A DNA stretch of 64,000 nucleotides, from contig NZ_ABCK01000002.1 in assembly GCF_000170755.1 (NCBI RefSeq), positions 124,001 to 188,000 of the forward strand. Direction: 5' to 3'. Below, piece after piece: positions 27,598-51,950 of the stretch. The translations under genes were made by a program, and so were the position numbers. The notes beneath the pieces were generated by a model. The model searched no databases, had not been told where the DNA came from, and saw only the letters and a list, made by a program, of their open reading frames with translations. The stretch comes from Lentisphaera araneosa HTCC2155. GTDB taxonomy: Bacteria; Verrucomicrobiota; Lentisphaeria; Lentisphaerales; Lentisphaeraceae. Each line of letters opens with the position of its first letter. Positions within the stretch are counted from its first letter, which is position 1.

Positions 27598-28194
27598 ATG
27601 GAAAAAAACTTAACTAGAATCAGCCTCATTCAAAAGTTGCAAGAAGATCGCAATGACGAATCTTGGAACGAATTTATCGACTTATACGAAGGCTATATCT
27701 TCACTATTGCGAAGAAAATGAACTTCTGTGATGACGATTGCTACGACATCATGCAAACGGCCTTTGTTAAAATCTGGTCTAAGGTGAATTCCTTTGAACA
27801 TGGTGGTAATGCTGGACAATTCCGTCGCTGGCTCGCGGTTATCACGCGTAACTCTGGCCTCAATCACATCGATAAACGCAAACGTGAGCAGGCCAAACAC
27901 GATAAGTTTTATGATGATCAAGCCAATTACCTCAACACGGTAACTGAACCCGAAATCGAAAAAATGGCTGAGAAAGAATGGGCCATCTATGTGACCAATT
28001 TGGCATGGAAAAATGTTCAAAATGACATCAGCCAGAGCCAAAAAGAAATTTTCGAAATGACCCTCGATGGCAAAAATCGCCCTGAGATTGCCGAAGCTTT
28101 AGAGATCCCTCTCAACACTGTGTCGGTTTACAAACGTCGAGTGACGGCCATTCTACAAAAAGAAATTAAACGCCTCGAGCAGAACTTTAATTAA
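27598..28194 (+). CDS. ECF-type RNA polymerase sigma factor
   Basis: 198 residues. Sigma region 2 lies at about 15-85 (DESWNEFIDLYEGYIFTIAKK, DIMQTAFVKIWSKV, FRRWLAVITRNS), and region 4 at about 135-195 (AWKNVQND, GKNRPEIAEALEIPLNTVSVYKRRV). This layout and the W.EF/YEGYI wording match the planctomycete-type ECF factors associated with Ser/Thr kinases. No anti-sigma gene follows. Instead a kinase gene converges on it, the two stop codons sharing the palindrome TTAATTAA. A paralog at 49533 is also next to a kinase gene. It probably directs transcription of neighbouring degradation genes, by inference. Confidence 0.9.
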   Translation: MEKNLTRISLIQKLQEDRNDESWNEFIDLYEGYIFTIAKKMNFCDDDCYDIMQTAFVKIWSKVNSFEHGGNAGQFRRWLAVITRNSGLNHIDKRKREQAKHDKFYDDQANYLNTVTEPEIEKMAEKEWAIYVTNLAWKNVQNDISQSQKEIFEMTLDGKNRPEIAEALEIPLNTVSVYKRRVTAILQKEIKRLEQNFN

Positions 28195-30188
28195 TCCACA
28201 TAAGTAAACTTGAGCTGTAAGTAAGTTTTGCCGAGTACATCTTGCTCTTCAGCTGATATTTGACCCTTTTGCAATACGACTTCCTCTAAACCAGGCAAAT
28301 GCTGCAGGCTTTCCATTGATTCAACTTCAGAACCATTGATGATGATTTTTCGTATGTAAGAAGAATTTAAATCTTCTAATCTAACCTGGCCGCAATCACT
28401 CAAATCTAGCGTCCCAATTTTCAGGCCGCAAAGAGCAATGAGATTCGATAAGTTTTCATGCCCACTTAAATCCAAGTCTGTAAAGACCGAGCCCTCGTTG
28501 GTATTAAATTGAACGTTCCACTTTTCTTGTTGCGCATTCGTTCCTTTTAGAATCTCACGAATGAGTAAAAGGCGCCTTTCAGTTGGCTGTGGTCGACTGA
28601 GGCGATGATGCACAATACGTCGGGCAATCCACGCTGATTCTGTGCTGCCAATCGTCGAAATAAATTTGATGAAATCATCGTCGTGCAAATAACCTTGTCG
28701 GTAGTAGGCCGTATCATCTCGGCGGTATTTAATGTATTCATCCAAGATTCTTTTTATAAACGTTTGTTTCTCCAAGTTATGCTTGAGATAGAGCTGATAA
28801 GCCTGTTCATTTTTTTCATAGAAAATCAGGAAAATGATTTTATTAGTCAAAACTTTTAAATCCTCTGGTGCCGCTGCCAAGGCCAAGTTTAATTGATTCA
28901 GCGTCCGTGTGTAAGTCCACTTCTCTGTAAAAACAGAGTTGATATTAGAAATTGAAAGGTCTTTTAAATGCTCGCGCTCTTTTTTCTCACCTAGGTACAT
29001 TTTAAAATTGATCTGAGCTTCGCTTAAAGCTTTTTCGGCTTTCTGCTGATTGGACTCAGCACGAGATCGTTCTTTTTCGGCACGTGCAGTTTCTTCCGTC
29101 GCGACATTGAGAGCTTCTAAAATTTGTTGTTCACTAATTTTTAAACGAGTAATAAAGCCAATGATTAGGGTCGTAATAATCGTGAAAGCAATCATCACAG
29201 TTACACAAATCTTTTTGTGGCGACGAACCAAGAGGCTCAGGGTTTTCAAGAAAGAGGCATTTTCTGCGCTCGGCGCAAAGCCATCGAGATACCGATCGAT
29301 TTCATGCCTCAATTCATCCACTGTTTGATAACGTTGCTCGGGATTCTCACTCATCGCCTTGAGGCACACTGCGACAAGGCCGTTGTCAATATGAAGCTCT
29401 GGACTGCGCTTGCTGGGAGCAATGAGTTCGCGTTTTGAGTTAAATGACTTGATATCAAAAGGAACTTTCTTTGTGAGAATGCTATAGAGCAATCCTCCCA
29501 AAGAGAAAATATCTGTGCGCTCATCCACTACTTTTTTGTTGGGAGTCAACTGCTCGGGAGCCATAAAGGCGGGCGTGCCCTTGCATTCGTTTGAAACTCC
29601 CTGGATATCTGGACTCAAAAAGTTCATGTCATCTTCGGGAATGTAGAGTCGCAGGGCCATGCCCCAGTCATAAACAAAAACTTCACCAAAATTATCGATA
29701 CAAACATTATCCGGCTTCAAATCTAAATGCACCACCCCACGTGAATGGGCATAGGAAATGGCATCACAGATTTTGATAAAAACTTGTAGAGATTTATTGA
29801 GTGGCTGATTATAAATGGCTTTGTTTAAGCTCTCGCCTTGAACTAACTTCATCGTGAAAAATGGCTGCTTCAACCAACCCATATCATACACTGGAATTAT
29901 ATTGGAGTGCTCTAACAAGGCACTAATTTGTGCTTCGCGACGAAAAGCCTCTTCACTCTCTTTTGAATCATCTTTTGGAAAGGCCATTGCCACATAACGC
30001 GAAGCTTTACAATCAAAGGCCTTATGGATATCTTTTAACCCGCCTTGAGCCATCAAATCTTCTACCTGATAGCGCTCATCGGGCTCAATATATTCTTCCT
30101 GATGATTGAGCTGTTGGTACAAGTCTCCAAGGCGGTCATCTATTTCGGAAACCGATTGGGACAAGCTTTCTTGCTTATTGCGGGGCAT
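28191..30188 (-). CDS. Membrane Ser/Thr kinase with WNK-like lysine position and LRR-like ectodomain
   Basis: 665 residues from the ATG with AGGTTA upstream; an upstream in-frame start adds 16 residues. Kinase domain at about 40-310: loop QGGLKDIHKAFD with Lys52 at the third loop glycine, VAMA where VAxK is expected (Ala69 at the lysine position), Glu85, HLDLKPDN (Asp156, Lys158, Asn161), DWG (Asp174) and GTPAFMAPEQ. A transmembrane helix (about 335-360) leads to a coiled coil of REEERAE type and a TPR/LRR-like C-terminal part (NLSNLIALCGLKIGTLDLSDCG). Arg is absent from the HRD motif. Probably active and coupled to the convergent sigma factor. Confidence 0.88.
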   Translation of the reverse strand: MPRNKQESLSQSVSEIDDRLGDLYQQLNHQEEYIEPDERYQVEDLMAQGGLKDIHKAFDCKASRYVAMAFPKDDSKESEEAFRREAQISALLEHSNIIPVYDMGWLKQPFFTMKLVQGESLNKAIYNQPLNKSLQVFIKICDAISYAHSRGVVHLDLKPDNVCIDNFGEVFVYDWGMALRLYIPEDDMNFLSPDIQGVSNECKGTPAFMAPEQLTPNKKVVDERTDIFSLGGLLYSILTKKVPFDIKSFNSKRELIAPSKRSPELHIDNGLVAVCLKAMSENPEQRYQTVDELRHEIDRYLDGFAPSAENASFLKTLSLLVRRHKKICVTVMIAFTIITTLIIGFITRLKISEQQILEALNVATEETARAEKERSRAESNQQKAEKALSEAQINFKMYLGEKKEREHLKDLSISNINSVFTEKWTYTRTLNQLNLALAAAPEDLKVLTNKIIFLIFYEKNEQAYQLYLKHNLEKQTFIKRILDEYIKYRRDDTAYYRQGYLHDDDFIKFISTIGSTESAWIARRIVHHRLSRPQPTERRLLLIREILKGTNAQQEKWNVQFNTNEGSVFTDLDLSGHENLSNLIALCGLKIGTLDLSDCGQVRLEDLNSSYIRKIIINGSEVESMESLQHLPGLEEVVLQKGQISAEEQDVLGKTYLQLKFTYVD

Positions 30189-30338
30189 AAGTAACCTATT
30201 GATTGATATCCAGATAATTAAGTCTCTAAAAACCAAATAGAAGACTATCTTTCTTTTAATTTATAAGATAATGTTTTAATTAATCTAGCTTTGTTTAGAA
30301 AAATTGTCACTTACCAAGGCATGCTTGGTTTTCTTAAT

Positions 30339-43875: not shown

Positions 43876-45972
43876 TTACTTTGCGCTTTGGACAAAATTG
43901 GGGCGAAGGGGCTTCTGATCCAACCTTTCGGAATACATCGCTTCGGCAACTTCGCGGGCACGACTACGCATTTCATCGTAGGGTTGATCGGTAATATCAA
44001 CAAATCCAATGCGATAATTTTCCCCGTCGGGACGTCCGGTTACGGCTTGGTCCTGAAGCTGAAAGTAATGGGCACCTATATAACGTGGGTCCTTGTACGC
44101 ATGTTCCGTGTAGGCTTTAAACTGCTCAGCTGCGTGTTTAATATCTACCGACGTACAAAGGCCACCACCCCAAACACCTTTTTCGTTGATTGTGCCAAAG
44201 TGGTACTCGCCAATAATCATCGGTTTATTGATTTCTTTCGGCCACTTAATTGTCAGAGGACTAAAGTCGTAATAGTTCACACTCACCACATCACAGTGAC
44301 GCGATGACGCAATCAAGGCATAATTATTTTCTTTAAAGTGAATACGACTGCCTAAATACAGTTTTTTAGGCGCATACTCTTTCATCATTTTCGAACACAC
44401 AGAAAAGTATCGATCCAAGTAAAGAGCGCTGATTTCTAAGAGGTCACGTTTACAATTCTTTTGATTCTTGGCCAAAGCTCCTTCAATCGAATCCCAAGAC
44501 TGATAATTTTTGCGCCAAGACGAATTGAGTTGCTTTATATTTTGGTATTTTTTTTGCAAGTGCTTTATGGCTACTTGACGTGAACGAGAGTCTTTGCGGC
44601 CATTCAAAATGATTTCGGCAGTTTGGACTGATTGCTGACCAAAATCGAGTTCATTATCAATAAAAAACCCAATGCACCAAGGATCATTTGCCTGCACTTG
44701 ATTTCTCGCTAGAGTTTTCTTTAAACTCTCTTCAAAGTGAGGGTGAAAGGCATCTGGTAAAGACTTAAGCTGCTTGCCTTCTTTGATTTCTGGACGCCAA
44801 AAGTGCACAGCTAAAGTATAAGGCATCTTTTTAAGTTCATAAAACTCTTTTTTCGTCCAGTTCCCTAAAGTATTGAAGCCCCATGAACGCAGGCGACGAT
44901 TGATCATCTTTGGGTAAGTTTGACGCCAATTTTTACCATATTTTTTTTGTAAATTGCTCTGTGATGGATTCCATGTACCGGGTTTTCTTCCCTTAATCAA
45001 TCCATCTGAGCTAGCAGCTTCTTTTAACTTTGCCAAAGCAGGCTCAGAAGTATCGCCACCATAGCCAATCGACGTTAAGCCAAATGACCAAAACAAATAT
45101 CCTTGAGGGTCAACAAACCACCATTTCCCATCAATTTCCACGGTATAAAAATGTCCTGTTGCTTGTTGTTTTGGGCTTAATAGATTCCCTCCATAAACAC
45201 TCAAATTAGTGCCTCCTGGATGGCTCTCTATCTCTTTCATTTCTTCTTTTAAATGAACTTGTAACTGCTCAGAACTTTTTACCTTCCCAGGCCACTTCTC
45301 TAAAACATTTTGACCAAAAGCATCCACGTAAGGTCGCTTGATAGGCGAAAATTGATAATCCTTGACATCGACAAAATCAACCATGCCTCTCAAGTCACTG
45401 ATCACTAAGTTGACCTCAGCTGACGCAGAAAATATATCGAGGTCTAAGTTACGGACATTGTCTAAATTCAATTGCTTCCATCTTGATCCATAAGTTCCAT
45501 TGGGAAAACCTTTAATATTACCATAAAGATAGGTTTGGTTCTCTATATGATTCACTTCTCTAGGCAAGTGAATGTAGAGGGTTCCACTCTCACCTGCTTC
45601 AAGGGCTAAACCACCCGTCGTTTCTTTCCAAGACTCAAAGGCACGCCCACGAACCATAATTTTTTCAATTCCTTTATTGGAAATATCGAGGCACATCCAG
45701 ATTTTTGAGCGAAAGTCTAAACCTTGGGCTCCTTGTACTTGAAATGAGACTTTTAAACTTTTGCTAGCCGAATTCTGAATACTCCAGACACCATTTTCTT
45801 TAGATTGACGCTTTTTCATGGAGTTTTGAGTTTTGGAGCTCACTACAATTTGCGCATCATCAAAATTTAAGGGTGCTCGATCAGCACTAGGATGTAATGG
45901 CTGAAGATTTTCCGCACATAAGTGGAAACTCAAAGCCAAAAAGGCTGTTAAAATTGATTTAAAATACTTCAT
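43876..45972 (-). CDS. GH50-like beta-agarase, secreted
   Basis: 698 residues, signal peptide at 1-20, AGAGGA five bases before the ATG. Residues about 25-215 are an N-terminal carbohydrate-binding-like beta domain. The catalytic TIM barrel (about 260-690) carries GKWWFVDPQGYLFWSFG, GFFIDNELDF with expected acid/base Glu441, GEYHFG with expected nucleophile Glu589, and HYFQLQDQAVTGRPDGENY. These match GH50 agarases, exo-acting enzymes that release neoagaro-oligosaccharides from agar. Eleven bases downstream of a sulfatase gene and in the same direction as a sigma factor and kinase, suggesting one regulated unit for a sulfated galactan. Confidence 0.85.
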   Translation of the reverse strand: MKYFKSILTAFLALSFHLCAENLQPLHPSADRAPLNFDDAQIVVSSKTQNSMKKRQSKENGVWSIQNSASKSLKVSFQVQGAQGLDFRSKIWMCLDISNKGIEKIMVRGRAFESWKETTGGLALEAGESGTLYIHLPREVNHIENQTYLYGNIKGFPNGTYGSRWKQLNLDNVRNLDLDIFSASAEVNLVISDLRGMVDFVDVKDYQFSPIKRPYVDAFGQNVLEKWPGKVKSSEQLQVHLKEEMKEIESHPGGTNLSVYGGNLLSPKQQATGHFYTVEIDGKWWFVDPQGYLFWSFGLTSIGYGGDTSEPALAKLKEAASSDGLIKGRKPGTWNPSQSNLQKKYGKNWRQTYPKMINRRLRSWGFNTLGNWTKKEFYELKKMPYTLAVHFWRPEIKEGKQLKSLPDAFHPHFEESLKKTLARNQVQANDPWCIGFFIDNELDFGQQSVQTAEIILNGRKDSRSRQVAIKHLQKKYQNIKQLNSSWRKNYQSWDSIEGALAKNQKNCKRDLLEISALYLDRYFSVCSKMMKEYAPKKLYLGSRIHFKENNYALIASSRHCDVVSVNYYDFSPLTIKWPKEINKPMIIGEYHFGTINEKGVWGGGLCTSVDIKHAAEQFKAYTEHAYKDPRYIGAHYFQLQDQAVTGRPDGENYRIGFVDITDQPYDEMRSRAREVAEAMYSERLDQKPLRPNFVQSAK

Positions 45973-45982
45973 TTATGTCCTC

Positions 45983-47371
45983 TTATTGAACTTTTTTCTT
46001 TTTTCTATTTTTCCACGCTTGTGTATGAATTAGGCCTAAAAATACCGGATCAATTAATTCACTATCCCACTGTTTAAGTAAAGCTTTGAGTTCTTTAACT
46101 CGCTCTGGATATTGAGCTGCGAGATTTTGTTTTTCTCCCATATCATTTTCTAGATCGTATAACTGAGGGGGAGCTCCGCGCCAAGGAATTATCATCTTAT
46201 AAGATCCATTTCTTATCGAATACCGATTTCCATCAAATTTACGTAAGTAAATTTGCTCGTGAGGAGCACCAGATTTTTCTCCCTTTAAGTAGGGGAGTAA
46301 ATTAACGCCATCTAAGGGTTTATCCGCATGAGTGGGTGACTGAGCTAAACTTGCGATGGTCGCAAATATATCTAATGAACTCACGGGCAGATCATAAGTT
46401 TGACCTGGCTTCAATTCTCTGGGATATTGCATGGCAAAAGGCACGCGAAAACCACCCTCAAAGACATCCCCTTTTTTACCCCTAAGATCTCCATTATCTG
46501 AGTTATTTTTTGTTGTAGGTCCCCCATTATCAGAAAGAAAAAATACAATGGTATCATCTTTAATTTTAAGCGCATCTAATTTTTTCATGAGACGTACAAT
46601 ACCATCATCCATGGCACTGACCATAGCACAATATGTTCTACGATTCTGATCTTCAATATGAGGAAAACGATCGAGATATTTTTGCGTGGCCTGCAAGGGG
46701 GTGTGAGGCGCATTATAAGAAAGGAACAAGAAAAAAGGCTGCTCATAGTTTTTCTCCACAAAGCGAATCGCTTCATCACTGAATTCATCGGTTAAATACT
46801 TCGTGGTTTTCACTGGTGTATCATTGCGCGTAATGTAACTTGCGTAGGAATCCATCTCATTTTTTACATCTTCCGTCTTGATGATGCGAAGCTTTTCTGG
46901 AAAGTAGGCATGACCTCCACCCAAATGACCAAAAAACTCATTAAAGCCACGCTGATTGGGTCTCAAACTGGGCTCCGCACCCAAATGCCACTTGCCAATA
47001 ATGCCGCAATGATAGCCGACTTGCTGCAATGATTCCGCAATCGTCATTTCACTTTTAGGCAAAGCTGAATTGGGATCAGTTAAATTCCATTGCGGATTGC
47101 GCTCAAAGCCAAAGCGTTGCTGATACCTCCCTGTGATAAAACCGGCGCGACTAGGGCCGCACACTGAATACGACGTGTAGCCACTACTAAATTTGACACC
47201 ATTGTTGGCGATAGAATCAATTCCTGGTGTAGGAATATCTTTACAGCCGTTAAAGCCCACATCCGCATAACCCAAATCATCGGCCATAATCACAATAAGA
47301 TTGGGTTTGCTACTAGCTTGAACGATTAGGCTTAGTCCTAAACTGAGTATAAAGAGTAAAAATTTTGTCAT
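45983..47371 (-). CDS. Secreted arylsulfatase-type sulfatase
   Basis: 462 residues from the ATG that gives a proper signal peptide (FLLFILSLGLSLIVQA) and has AAAGGA upstream; a longer in-frame start adds 23 residues. Type I sulfatase of the arylsulfatase A group: LIVIMADDLGYADVG, Cys71 in CGPSRAG, GIIGKWHLGAE, FLSYNAPHTPLQA, FFLSDNGGPTTKNN, and QLYDLENDMGEKQNLA at the end. It lacks the EF-hand tail of the IDS-like sulfatases in this window. Directly upstream of the GH50 agarase gene, so it probably desulfates agar/porphyran chains for that enzyme. Confidence 0.93.
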   Translation of the reverse strand: MTKFLLFILSLGLSLIVQASSKPNLIVIMADDLGYADVGFNGCKDIPTPGIDSIANNGVKFSSGYTSYSVCGPSRAGFITGRYQQRFGFERNPQWNLTDPNSALPKSEMTIAESLQQVGYHCGIIGKWHLGAEPSLRPNQRGFNEFFGHLGGGHAYFPEKLRIIKTEDVKNEMDSYASYITRNDTPVKTTKYLTDEFSDEAIRFVEKNYEQPFFLFLSYNAPHTPLQATQKYLDRFPHIEDQNRRTYCAMVSAMDDGIVRLMKKLDALKIKDDTIVFFLSDNGGPTTKNNSDNGDLRGKKGDVFEGGFRVPFAMQYPRELKPGQTYDLPVSSLDIFATIASLAQSPTHADKPLDGVNLLPYLKGEKSGAPHEQIYLRKFDGNRYSIRNGSYKMIIPWRGAPPQLYDLENDMGEKQNLAAQYPERVKELKALLKQWDSELIDPVFLGLIHTQAWKNRKKKKVQ

Positions 47372-47455
47372 GGATCCTTTAGAGTTGTTTACATAAAAAA
47401 CAGGACTTAAAGAGCAAAGTGACAAACAGTAAACTAACACACAGCTGAACTAAAC

Positions 47456-49519
47456 TTAAGGAACTACAATAATTTCAGTTTCTGGAAGGTAAGCTTTAAG
47501 AGCTTCAAGCTTGAATTGGCCCTCATGGATTATCAGCTCATCTAGACCCTTAAATCCCTGAAAAACTGCCAAACTGCGAATAGCCGTGTGGCTCACATTA
47601 AGTTTACGAATAGACAGCTGATTCAGTTTAACTAAATTAACCACACCGGTGTGAGCGAGGTTTAACTCCCGCAAATCATCATTCTCTAAGGTGTGTAACT
47701 CAATAATCTCTGTGTGGCTCACATCAAGATATTGTAGAGGTTGATTCCGAAAGCAAATAAAATTATTGATCCCAGTGTGGGAAAGATTGGCTGAAAGAGC
47801 AGGAAAGTTTTGTAGAATTAAAGCCGTATGCATCCACCTATTATTGGAGACATCTAAGTGACGACTTTCGGCATCATAAATAAAATTAATTTTTTGCCCT
47901 TTGTAATATCTCTCCAAAGTTTTTTTATTGTGAGCAATCAAAAAAGCTTTACAATACTCGATACGCTTCTCCACAGGCATTTCAGAATAGGCAGTATAAT
48001 GAATCAGACTACCTGCTAACTCCAGTAAACCTTCATCCATAGTTTGCCGAAATAAGTTAACGAGTTGATTCAAAGGCAACTCATTCTCATCCTTAGCTTT
48101 TATCTTGAGAAAATCTTCTGATAAATTCAGTAACTTTGGTGATTGTCCTCCTTTATGAAAAGCTTGTATGGCCATATCAAATTCTTGATAAATTAAGTGC
48201 AATAAGCCCTTTAAACTCCAGGCCTCTTTAAGACTTGGATCCAATTCCACTGCTGAATCACAGAAATTTACTGCATCATCAAAATTAAAGGTATTATAGG
48301 CAATTTGAGCACGATTAAAAAAGCGTGGTGCAGCATCTTTACCCATTTTAACGTGAAACTCTTTTTCTAAACTCAATTTTTCCGCAAGTTGCAAAGCATT
48401 TATCTTTTCTAATTTGAGATTATTAACGGCAAAAAAAGCGGTAAATAAACTAATCAAAACCAAAAGACTCACAGCCAAACTCATCGCCTTGTGACGCTTG
48501 AACCACAGACTCATGAGCTTCACTAAGGTGGCATTTTCTGCACGGGTCGCAAAACCATTACGATAATTCAAAATATCTCTTTGGAGATTCACCACACTCA
48601 CATAACGCTCTTTAGGATCCATAGACATCGCTTTTAAACAAACCGCTTCTAAAGATAGAGGGATTGATGAGTCAATTTCACTGGGTTTGCGGAAGTCGCA
48701 ATTGGCCGTTTTGGTCATGATCTCATCTAAATCTTTGCCGCGAAAAGGTTTTTGAAAAGTCAAAATTTTATACAGCACACAACCAAGAGAAAATATATCG
48801 GTGTGAACGCCCTTTTTATTTTTCACCAAAGGCGTTTGCTCGGGCGCCATGTAGCCAGGTGTGCCCTTAATCACGCCGTCGAGGGTTAAATGAGTATCTT
48901 TGGGATTAAAACTATAATATTCTAGCAAGTCTTCATCACACACGGATGCCATTACTTTCGCCAAACCCCAGTCACAAAGCAAGACGTCACCATATTCACT
49001 GATCTGAATATTATCGGGTTTTATATCCAAGTGTAAAACGCCCCTAGAATGGGCATAGGCAATCGCATCACATACTTTAATAAAAACGTCGAGGCGATCA
49101 CTCAAATCGCTGTGTTGAAAAGATTTTCCTTCCTGAATTTCTTTGAGAATTTGTTCGAGGGAGGACCCCGAAATAAATTTCATCGTAAACCACGGGTGGC
49201 GACCCTTGAGGCCTAAATCATGCATGGGAATAATATTTGGATGCTGAAGTGTCGCAGTTAAACGCGCTTCGCGCAAAAAGGCTTCTTTTTCTAGATCACT
49301 GGCATCATTCTTTAAACTCGCCATGGCCACAATTCGACCGGTTTTTAAATCTCGGCAAGTTTTGATGGCTTTGATTCCGCCTTCATCCACATACTCGAAA
49401 TCTGTGTAGCGATTTTTGATCGTTTCCAACATATCGAGCAAGGGCATTTCGTCAGAGTCTTCCACCTCATCATAAAAATCGGCAAACTTCTTATCAAATC
49501 CTTCTTCAAGTCGGCTCAT
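47456..49519 (-). CDS. Membrane Ser/Thr kinase with WNK-like lysine position, TPR and LRR ectodomain
   Basis: 687 residues. Kinase domain about 40-325: loop DEGGIKAIKTCRD with Lys50 at the third loop glycine, VAMA with Ala67 at the usual lysine position, Glu84, HLDIKPDN (Asp165, Lys167, Asn170), DWG (Asp183) and GTPGYMAPEQ. A transmembrane helix (MSLAVSLLVLISLFTAFFAV) follows, then a TPR-like region (NFDDAVNFCDSAVELDPSLK) and LRRs with a recurring L.(V/L)(S/A)HT phrase. The C-terminal sensor would face outside. It lies 13 bases after the ECF sigma gene and upstream of the sulfatase, implying an operon. Paralog of the kinase at 28191. Confidence 0.9.
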   Translation of the reverse strand: MSRLEEGFDKKFADFYDEVEDSDEMPLLDMLETIKNRYTDFEYVDEGGIKAIKTCRDLKTGRIVAMASLKNDASDLEKEAFLREARLTATLQHPNIIPMHDLGLKGRHPWFTMKFISGSSLEQILKEIQEGKSFQHSDLSDRLDVFIKVCDAIAYAHSRGVLHLDIKPDNIQISEYGDVLLCDWGLAKVMASVCDEDLLEYYSFNPKDTHLTLDGVIKGTPGYMAPEQTPLVKNKKGVHTDIFSLGCVLYKILTFQKPFRGKDLDEIMTKTANCDFRKPSEIDSSIPLSLEAVCLKAMSMDPKERYVSVVNLQRDILNYRNGFATRAENATLVKLMSLWFKRHKAMSLAVSLLVLISLFTAFFAVNNLKLEKINALQLAEKLSLEKEFHVKMGKDAAPRFFNRAQIAYNTFNFDDAVNFCDSAVELDPSLKEAWSLKGLLHLIYQEFDMAIQAFHKGGQSPKLLNLSEDFLKIKAKDENELPLNQLVNLFRQTMDEGLLELAGSLIHYTAYSEMPVEKRIEYCKAFLIAHNKKTLERYYKGQKINFIYDAESRHLDVSNNRWMHTALILQNFPALSANLSHTGINNFICFRNQPLQYLDVSHTEIIELHTLENDDLRELNLAHTGVVNLVKLNQLSIRKLNVSHTAIRSLAVFQGFKGLDELIIHEGQFKLEALKAYLPETEIIVVP

Positions 49520-49532
49520 ATCAAATTCGGAA

Positions 49533-50135
49533 TTAGCCGCCCAGTTCGGTATTCAGACGCGCAATCTCACGTAGAAGAACTTTTTTAACTCGGGATTTAT
49601 AAACTCGAATCGCGCCGGGGCTCGCATCAAATTTCTCTGCGAGTGATTGATTACTTTCTTCGTGAATTGAGGCTTCAAATATCGCGCGGGATTTTTTGGG
49701 AAACTCATCTTTCACATTCTCCCAAGCCATATTCGAAATGTAGCTCTTCCACTCAATTTCAGCTATCTTATTGATCTCGGGTTCTGTAATTGTGTTGAGT
49801 GCATGCAAGGTCGAATCATAATCCACATTCTTCGTATCATTGCGTGTCGACTTCTTTTTAAAAAAGTTGTATACCGTACTGCGGATTACGAGGCAAAGCC
49901 AAGTTCGGAAGGTGCATTCACCCTCACGGTATTCATAATTGGGAAGAGATTTCCAAACTTTGATCAGCACATCTTGCAACAAATCTTCGGCCACATGCTG
50001 ATTAACTCCGAGGCTACGGATCACCACATAAATATATCCTTCATAGTAACGGACAAATTCATCCCAAGATTTTTCATCACTGGAATCAATAAGTTTATAC
50101 AGAAGAGTCTGTCGAGTATGGTACTCTTTAGCCAT
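49533..50135 (-). CDS. ECF-type RNA polymerase sigma factor
   Basis: 200 residues with AAGGA five bases upstream of the ATG. Region 2 at about 18-95 (EKSWDEFVRYYEGYIYVVIRSLG, HVAEDLLQDVLIKVWKSLPNY, TFRTWLCLVIRS) and region 4 at about 135-195 (MAWENVKDEFPKKSR, SNQSLAEKFDASPGAIRVYKSRV). It is similar in build to the sigma factor at 27598 and, like it, has a kinase neighbour in place of an anti-sigma gene. First gene of a minus-strand series: sigma, kinase, sulfatase, GH50 agarase. It may control its own operon in response to the kinase's sensor domain; that is inference. Confidence 0.92.
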   Translation of the reverse strand: MAKEYHTRQTLLYKLIDSSDEKSWDEFVRYYEGYIYVVIRSLGVNQHVAEDLLQDVLIKVWKSLPNYEYREGECTFRTWLCLVIRSTVYNFFKKKSTRNDTKNVDYDSTLHALNTITEPEINKIAEIEWKSYISNMAWENVKDEFPKKSRAIFEASIHEESNQSLAEKFDASPGAIRVYKSRVKKVLLREIARLNTELGG

Positions 50136-51182: not shown

Positions 51183-51950
51183 TCATTGTGCATCCCATTG
51201 AGTATCAGTAATATTTGAAGTACTTGCTAATGAACCGTCTGATTTGCTTATAGTTTTATAAAAACTAGTTTTTGCTACATGACCGTCAGTATATAAGTAG
51301 TTGGAACCAGTTAAACCATCATGGGGGATTAGTTCAGGGGTACTATTAATGGTGTCGGCATTTACACCACTTCCCCAGTATCTACCTACCATTTGACCTG
51401 TTCTCATTATCTCCGCTAGAGATATAGTATTACTCGGGTCACTAATTTCATTTAACTTGATCGCGTAAGGCATTCTGCCAACCCAGGTGACTCCAATAAT
51501 ACCTCTGCTTTTATTATCTATTCCATTATTGTCAAAAAATGCAGATGCACTATATGTCAAAGGAAGACAATCTGGATCAGTCCCAAATAATCTTTCTATG
51601 TCATCTGTAGGACATTGATATATACCTGCATCGTTATTAAAATCACTCCCATTAAGCTTACCTGCATTTTTTTGAGTAGTAGATAAATCTCGTCCATCGT
51701 AAGCACTTAAATTATCATCCCAAGATACAGGTCCATAACCCGGCCATTGATGACTGGTAGACTCAGGGAAACGCCCTTCATTATCGTCGGCATTCAGGGC
51801 AAACAAAATAGCAATTTGTTTCATATTATTTTTACAGACAGCTTGCTTCGCTTTGTCTCGCGATTGTGCTAATGAAGGTAGTAAGAAGGAACTCAGAATT
51901 CCAATTATAGCCACTACAACCAAAAGCTCTATTAAACTAAATTTTTTCAT
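51183..51950 (-). CDS. Prepilin-type (pseudopilin-like) protein
   Basis: 255 residues. A very short leader MKK precedes [20 protein letters not shown]; the -1 residue is Lys. Globular domain with AVCKNNMKQIAILFALNADD, WDDNLSAYDGRDLS, YQCPTDDIE and the C-terminal motif in which His and Asp-Gly are separated by eleven residues (HDGLTGSNYLYTDGHV). The end WDAQ parallels WDSAR/WDRAR of two other prepilins here. AAGGTG precedes the ATG. Likely a minor pilin or secretion pseudopilin. Divergent from the ThuA-discoidin gene at 52337. Confidence 0.86.
   Translation of the reverse strand: MKKFSLIELLVVVAIIGILSSFLLPSLAQSRDKAKQAVCKNNMKQIAILFALNADDNEGRFPESTSHQWPGYGPVSWDDNLSAYDGRDLSTTQKNAGKLNGSDFNNDAGIYQCPTDDIERLFGTDPDCLPLTYSASAFFDNNGIDNKSRGIIGVTWVGRMPYAIKLNEISDPSNTISLAEIMRTGQMVGRYWGSGVNADTINSTPELIPHDGLTGSNYLYTDGHVAKTSFYKTISKSDGSLASTSNITDTQWDAQ

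Follow-up and report, generated by a model that had tools for sequence, protein, structure and literature searches.

By convention, an active protein kinase is recognized by the lysine residue in strand β-3 (VAIK motif), and motif-based definitions apply the term pseudokinase to any kinase without it (PMC12599244). According to Kannan et al. 2007, WNK is the one ePK family that functions without K72; K55 (PKA numbering) is required for its catalysis, and R55 of CAK-chloro represents an analogous shift (PMC1821047). In bacteria, the families ActPs1-3, DLHK, GLW, CP1, and DYD have mostly lost the β-3 lysine, but their other catalytic motifs are lost or altered as well and they occur in other hosts than the kinases treated here. 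None of them is described as combining a lysine in the nucleotide loop with intact HxD/K/N/DxG residues, and the 2025 review of bacterial pseudokinase families refers to WNK as an analogy only, without describing a family of this kind (PMC12599244). With regard to signalling, pairs of an ECF sigma factor and a Ser/Thr kinase are known from EcfP/PknT and EcfK/PknS, in which the sigma factor gene adjoins the gene of a membrane kinase. In the EcfP type, sigma region 2 has uncharged Ser/Thr residues in place of the acidic DAED motif, and phosphorylation restores the missing charge (PMC8103513).

The window, that is, the whole stretch of 64,000 nucleotides of Lentisphaera araneosa HTCC2155 that was analysed, encodes a kinase that shares features with several of these systems (Table 1). 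Its more likely start is the ATG at 30188, from which all residue numbers are counted; an alternative TTG at 30236 would extend the reading frame (28191-30236, minus strand) to 681 amino acids. The match to PF00069 scores 108.9 bits against a gathering cut-off of 31.7. With PknB-type Hanks kinases (PF00069) the protein shares the fold, the arrangement of kinase domain, transmembrane segment, and sensor, the α-C glutamate, the catalytic Asp/Lys/Asn residues, and the GTPxxMAPE region. It differs from them in an alanine at the β-3 lysine site, a lysine in the nucleotide loop, HLD instead of HRD, DWG instead of DFG, and LRR or helical repeats where PknB-type kinases carry PASTA domains at the C-terminus.

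Table 1. Features of the window kinase, its sigma factor gene, and the second kinase module.
Feature	Position	Strand	Remarks
ECF-type sigma factor paired with the window kinase	27598..28194	+	convergent, 4-base overlap
Window kinase CDS, 665 aa from ATG at 30188	28191..30188	-	stop 28191-28193
LRR-like C-terminal domain, residues ~558-665	28194..28517	-	presumed extracytoplasmic; follows coiled-coil and helical-repeat stretches
One predicted transmembrane segment, residues ~327-345	29154..29210	-	hydropathy only
Protein kinase domain, residues 38-325 (span aligned)	29214..30077	-	PF00069, E 3.8e-31
DWG motif (Asp174)	29661..29669	-	
Catalytic loop HLDLKPDN (Asp156, Lys158, Asn161)	29706..29726	-	non-RD, HLD replaces HRD
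Glu85, α-C glutamate	29934..29936	-	invariant
Ala69, site of the β-3 VAIK lysine	29982..29984	-	codon GCC; family-invariant Ala
Lys52, third-glycine position of the nucleotide loop	30033..30035	-	codon AAA; first residue of β-2 (model); family-invariant
Glycoside-hydrolase-like gene, second module	43876-45972	-	
Sulfatase, second module	45983-47440	-	
Second swapped-family kinase	47456..49519	-	VDEGGIKAIK...RIVAMASL
Sigma factor partner of the second kinase	49533..50135	-	directly upstream, same strand

The initial annotation had assigned a lysine to the third-glycine position of the loop, and an alanine to the β-3 lysine site, within the span 29982-30041 (minus strand), which corresponds to residues 50-69, and had compared this layout to WNK. 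The codons and the alignments bear out this assignment. A phmmer comparison with PknB of Mycobacterium tuberculosis sets MAQGGLKDIH...RYVAMAF against LGFGGMSEVH...RDVAVKV without a gap; AQGGLKDI lies over GFGGMSEV, so that Lys52 takes the third glycine of GxGxxG, and VAMAF lies over VAVKV, so that Ala69 takes the position of the invariant β-3 lysine. When WNK1 (GRGSFK/VAWC) is placed against the family profile, its loop lysine and β-3 cysteine fall on the same two positions. An AlphaFold2 model of the kinase, calculated from a 40-sequence alignment (pLDDT 91.2, pTM 0.90), has a PknB-like fold, in which β-2 comprises residues 52-59 and begins exactly at Lys52, β-3 comprises residues 64-71 including Ala69, and α-C comprises residues 76-91 including Glu85. 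The nearest solved fold to the model is PknB (VIA Z 30.5, rmsd 2.3). Behind the transmembrane segment, a single one of which is predicted C-terminally to the kinase domain in nearly all paralogs, a long helix is followed by helical repeats, and the end of the protein is LRR-like; relatives have Pfam LRR_4 matches in this part, and comparison of the last 100 residues of the C-terminal model with LRR proteins gave high Foldseek probability with weak E-values. Because there is only one transmembrane segment, the C-terminal part would be located outside the cytoplasm.

The layout is that of a large family. The Lentisphaera genome yields about 105 kinase-domain matches, and among 94 aligned kinase reading frames, 62 combine a lysine at the third glycine with a β-3 alanine (swapped kinases in the following), while 27 have the canonical β-3 lysine together with Gly, Ser, or Ala in the loop. 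Lys52 and Ala69 do not vary among 58 swapped paralogs whose identity to the window kinase is 32-53%, and each is invariant in 164 swapped sequences at ~40% identity; to judge from these alignments, invariance at such divergence is far beyond chance. They are also the two most discriminating columns, each of which completely separates swapped from canonical DWG kinases. Among 327 distinct kinases, the lysine is found in the loop only in 166, in β-3 only in 160, at both sites in none, and at neither site in one; a Fisher test on these counts treats relatives as independent and is descriptive only. The family would appear to be an as yet undescribed branch of the Hanks kinases in which the active site is WNK-like, and its members, lacking the VAIK lysine by sequence, are to be regarded as deviant rather than canonical representatives of the Hanks type. 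The earlier statement that no such bacterial group is described agrees with the open-access literature searched, in which no account of a WNK-like bacterial kinase family was found; the 42-family bacterial kinase atlas lies outside this scope, and a prior mention there is possible.

The reading that we consider quite probable is that of a PknB-like, membrane-anchored Ser/Thr receptor kinase, belonging to a family found mainly in Verrucomicrobiota (GTDB), in which the lysine that anchors ATP has moved from β-3 to Lys52 as in WNK, with Lys52 supporting catalysis and the paired sigma factor being activated. The C-terminal part would sense something outside the cytoplasm; Lys52 would reach the α/β phosphates and Glu85 and take over the role of the β-3 lysine; the target phosphorylated by the cytoplasmic kinase domain would probably be the paired sigma factor, which, once activated, would switch on nearby genes. 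That Lys52 would act in the role of the β-3 lysine is strongly supported by its conservation and by the WNK precedent. If so, a second, apparently independent case, spread over several classes and present in 62 copies in one genome, would be available for testing why and how this lysine moves, and motif-based surveys would mislabel such kinases as pseudokinases. Kinases are distinguished as RD and non-RD types; since the catalytic loop reads HLD and not HRD, activation-loop phosphorylation would not be the main switch.

An alternative which we regard as unlikely is that the family consists of pseudokinases, whose domain would only bind partners such as the sigma factor, with Lys52 as a structural remnant. 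The motif-based definition of the term, the replacement of HRD by HLD, and an altered C-spine position are in its favor. The retention of Glu85, Asp156, Lys158, Asn161, and Asp174, already listed in the initial annotation for the window kinase, is complete at the equivalent positions in each of the 162 scorable sequences of the swapped type, however, and the GTPxxMAPE region is likewise kept. The DxG motif of these 162 sequences is DWG in 160 and DFG in 2, the HxD motif HLD in 155, HRD in 5, and HFD in 2. Moreover, the new invariant lysine is located exactly at the site of the WNK catalytic lysine, and the only paralog without both lysines (L120, 2908-4821, plus strand) has also lost the HRD and DFG residues. 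By its sequence, this degenerate paralog, with sulfatase genes nearby, is a true pseudokinase of the Lentisphaera genome. The conservation pattern thus argues well for swapped kinases that are probably catalytically active. As a separate observation, one swapped kinase gene (L074, 2116-4284, minus strand) is broken by a single in-frame TAA, which is either the mark of a pseudogene or a sequencing error.

The two lysine columns are not the only ones to differ. The third most different column is that of residue 163 (codon 29700-29702, minus strand), two positions after the catalytic Asn, where swapped kinases have Gln, Arg, His, or Asn and canonical DWG kinases Met or Leu; the window kinase has Cys. 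We take this residue to be the equivalent of PKA Leu173 on the floor of the adenine pocket (C-spine). Next follows residue 155, with Leu in place of the HRD arginine. Since loop, β-3, residue 163, and residue 155 are all altered, the nucleotide site has changed as a set, and a polar residue 163 may alter nucleotide binding, with a preference for a nucleotide other than ATP. The concomitant change of the adenine-pocket floor also speaks for a further alternative, namely, that the kinases are active but owe their activity to another substitute (Lys158, Lys72, or an arginine) or to an altered nucleotide geometry, and not to Lys52. This is very unlikely: Lys72 is poorly kept (50 of 164 swapped sequences), Lys158 is common to every kinase, and Lys52 alone is present in all swapped sequences and confined to them. 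Relocation to Lys52 remains the preferred reading. An alignment or sequencing artefact, in which a lysine such as Lys72 would truly occupy the VAIK register, can practically be discounted: lysine is the commonest residue at position 72, but the PKDD lysine, named beforehand as the residue that could overturn the assignment, is out of register, lying past the end of β-3 in the model, while residue 69 lies within this strand, the stretch from loop to β-3 is gapless across 40 relatives, and the same arrangement is found in 166 independent gene sequences.

Descent from, or common with, eukaryotic WNK kinases, possibly as chloride sensors, has next to no credence in spite of the identical position of the lysine and the loss of its β-3 counterpart, because PknB chains of M. 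tuberculosis come closest among solved structures by sequence (E about 1e-34), and PknB also by fold, the motifs are HLD and DWG instead of HRD and DLG, and bacterial DWG kinases are the nearest of the canonical relatives. WNK uses the DLG motif as part of its chloride site; with DWG and HLD in the swapped family, WNK-type chloride sensing receives no support from the motifs. No WNK was present among the matches listed for the best 60 PDB sequences, which PknB heads, nor a WNK chain among the matches listed from the fold searches with the model, although its absence from the latter does not amount to a test. The swapped family and WNK1-4 thus share the lysine at the third loop glycine, at the start of β-2, and the lack of the one in β-3, where WNK has Cys instead of Ala; the bacterial kinases are membrane-anchored, linked to sigma factors, and nearer to PknB in sequence and fold. 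Since the family is related to PknB-like bacterial kinases and the other WNK motifs are missing, the likeness would be convergent, and the lysine placement has apparently arisen independently of WNK. CAK-chloro and POMK are similar to the swapped family in that the glycine loop supplies a positive charge once the β-3 lysine is lost (PMC1821047, PMC12599244). Both lack the α-C glutamate that the swapped family keeps, CAK-chloro being in addition small-molecule-kinase-like with Arg55.

Within the phylum, the best matches from several families of Lentisphaeria and from other classes share the swap; by NCBI names, the relatives carrying it belong to Lentisphaerota, Kiritimatiellota, and Verrucomicrobiota, and rarely to Planctomycetota. 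A named scan found it in records of Lentisphaera marina, Pontiella, Kiritimatiellales, Victivallales, and Akkermansiaceae, while the same scan returned only canonical relatives from Myxococcota, Acidobacteriota, Planctomycetota, and other groups. The WNK-like layout claimed for a single gene is accordingly that of a phylum-wide family with two mutually exclusive lysines and intact catalytic residues. Only two of 343 Planctomycetota genomes contain swapped sequences, one with several strong matches (G431, locus L315) and one with a single match (G393, locus L303); relatives of the sigma factor are found near both loci, and about 15 are present in G431. These exceptions may reflect transfer or contaminated bins. 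In Myxococcota, 17 of 189 genomes scored above the threshold, and the kinases found in them were canonical throughout. Trees calculated without the two swap columns place the swapped kinases among or beside canonical DWG kinases and imply two or three state changes, but the AU test does not reject a single origin (p-AU 0.31 and 0.27), and coupled reversions are therefore not established. One canonical DWG kinase (AYK, HRD; L107, 2050-4230, minus strand) groups among swapped ones and has a sigma factor gene nearby; it is a possible but not established case of such a reversion.

A sigma factor gene of the same family directly adjoins 52 of the 62 swapped kinases; in 30 of these 52 it lies upstream on the same strand and overlaps the kinase gene. 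Of the nine canonical DWG kinases of the genome, only two have an adjacent gene of this kind. The f5 group of swapped kinases, mostly shorter proteins, has none, which counts against the preferred reading. As there are about 60 paralogs of this sigma factor in the 6 Mb genome, dozens of adjacent pairs are not due to chance. Kinase and sigma factor genes are also paired in other genera, such as members of Pontiellaceae and Akkermansiaceae. Gene pairing, together with the precedents of EcfP/PknT and EcfK/PknS, makes signalling to the paired sigma factor the most likely function. The Lentisphaera pairs differ from these precedents in the swapped kinase lysine, in their number within one genome, and in the acidic DAED-like motif of sigma region 2, which is kept in the paired sigma factors: among the 52, the last position is Asp in 44 and Glu in 8, and the position before it Glu in 23 or Asp in 20. 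Activation of the EcfP type, the sole worked-out mode of kinase-driven sigma activation, is therefore ruled out, and about 52 kinase-sigma pairs in one bacterium would signal by another mechanism. There is about an even chance that the full picture holds, in which more than 60 active receptor kinases per genome, with an independently evolved WNK layout, would each serve as a switch made of one membrane protein, activating their own ECF sigma factor by phosphorylation of a residue different from the DAED-replacing one.

The second module of the window (43876-50135, minus strand) has the genes for sigma factor, kinase, sulfatase, and glycoside-hydrolase-like protein in operon-like order, and its kinase is also swapped. 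Throughout the genome, a sulfatase gene is located within about 3 kb of 29 of the 62 swapped kinases; since at least 151 sulfatase matches are present (340 first-look candidates), this is near the chance level by a rough estimate, and a linkage of sulfatases and kinases was not retained. A role in defence, as might be read from PADLOC matches to PD-T4-6, was likewise dismissed, these matches reflecting the common kinase domain only. Beyond the second module, the region 51183-51950 (minus strand) encodes a protein resembling pseudopilins, with an N-terminus as in type II prepilins, of a kind that is often numerous in this phylum.
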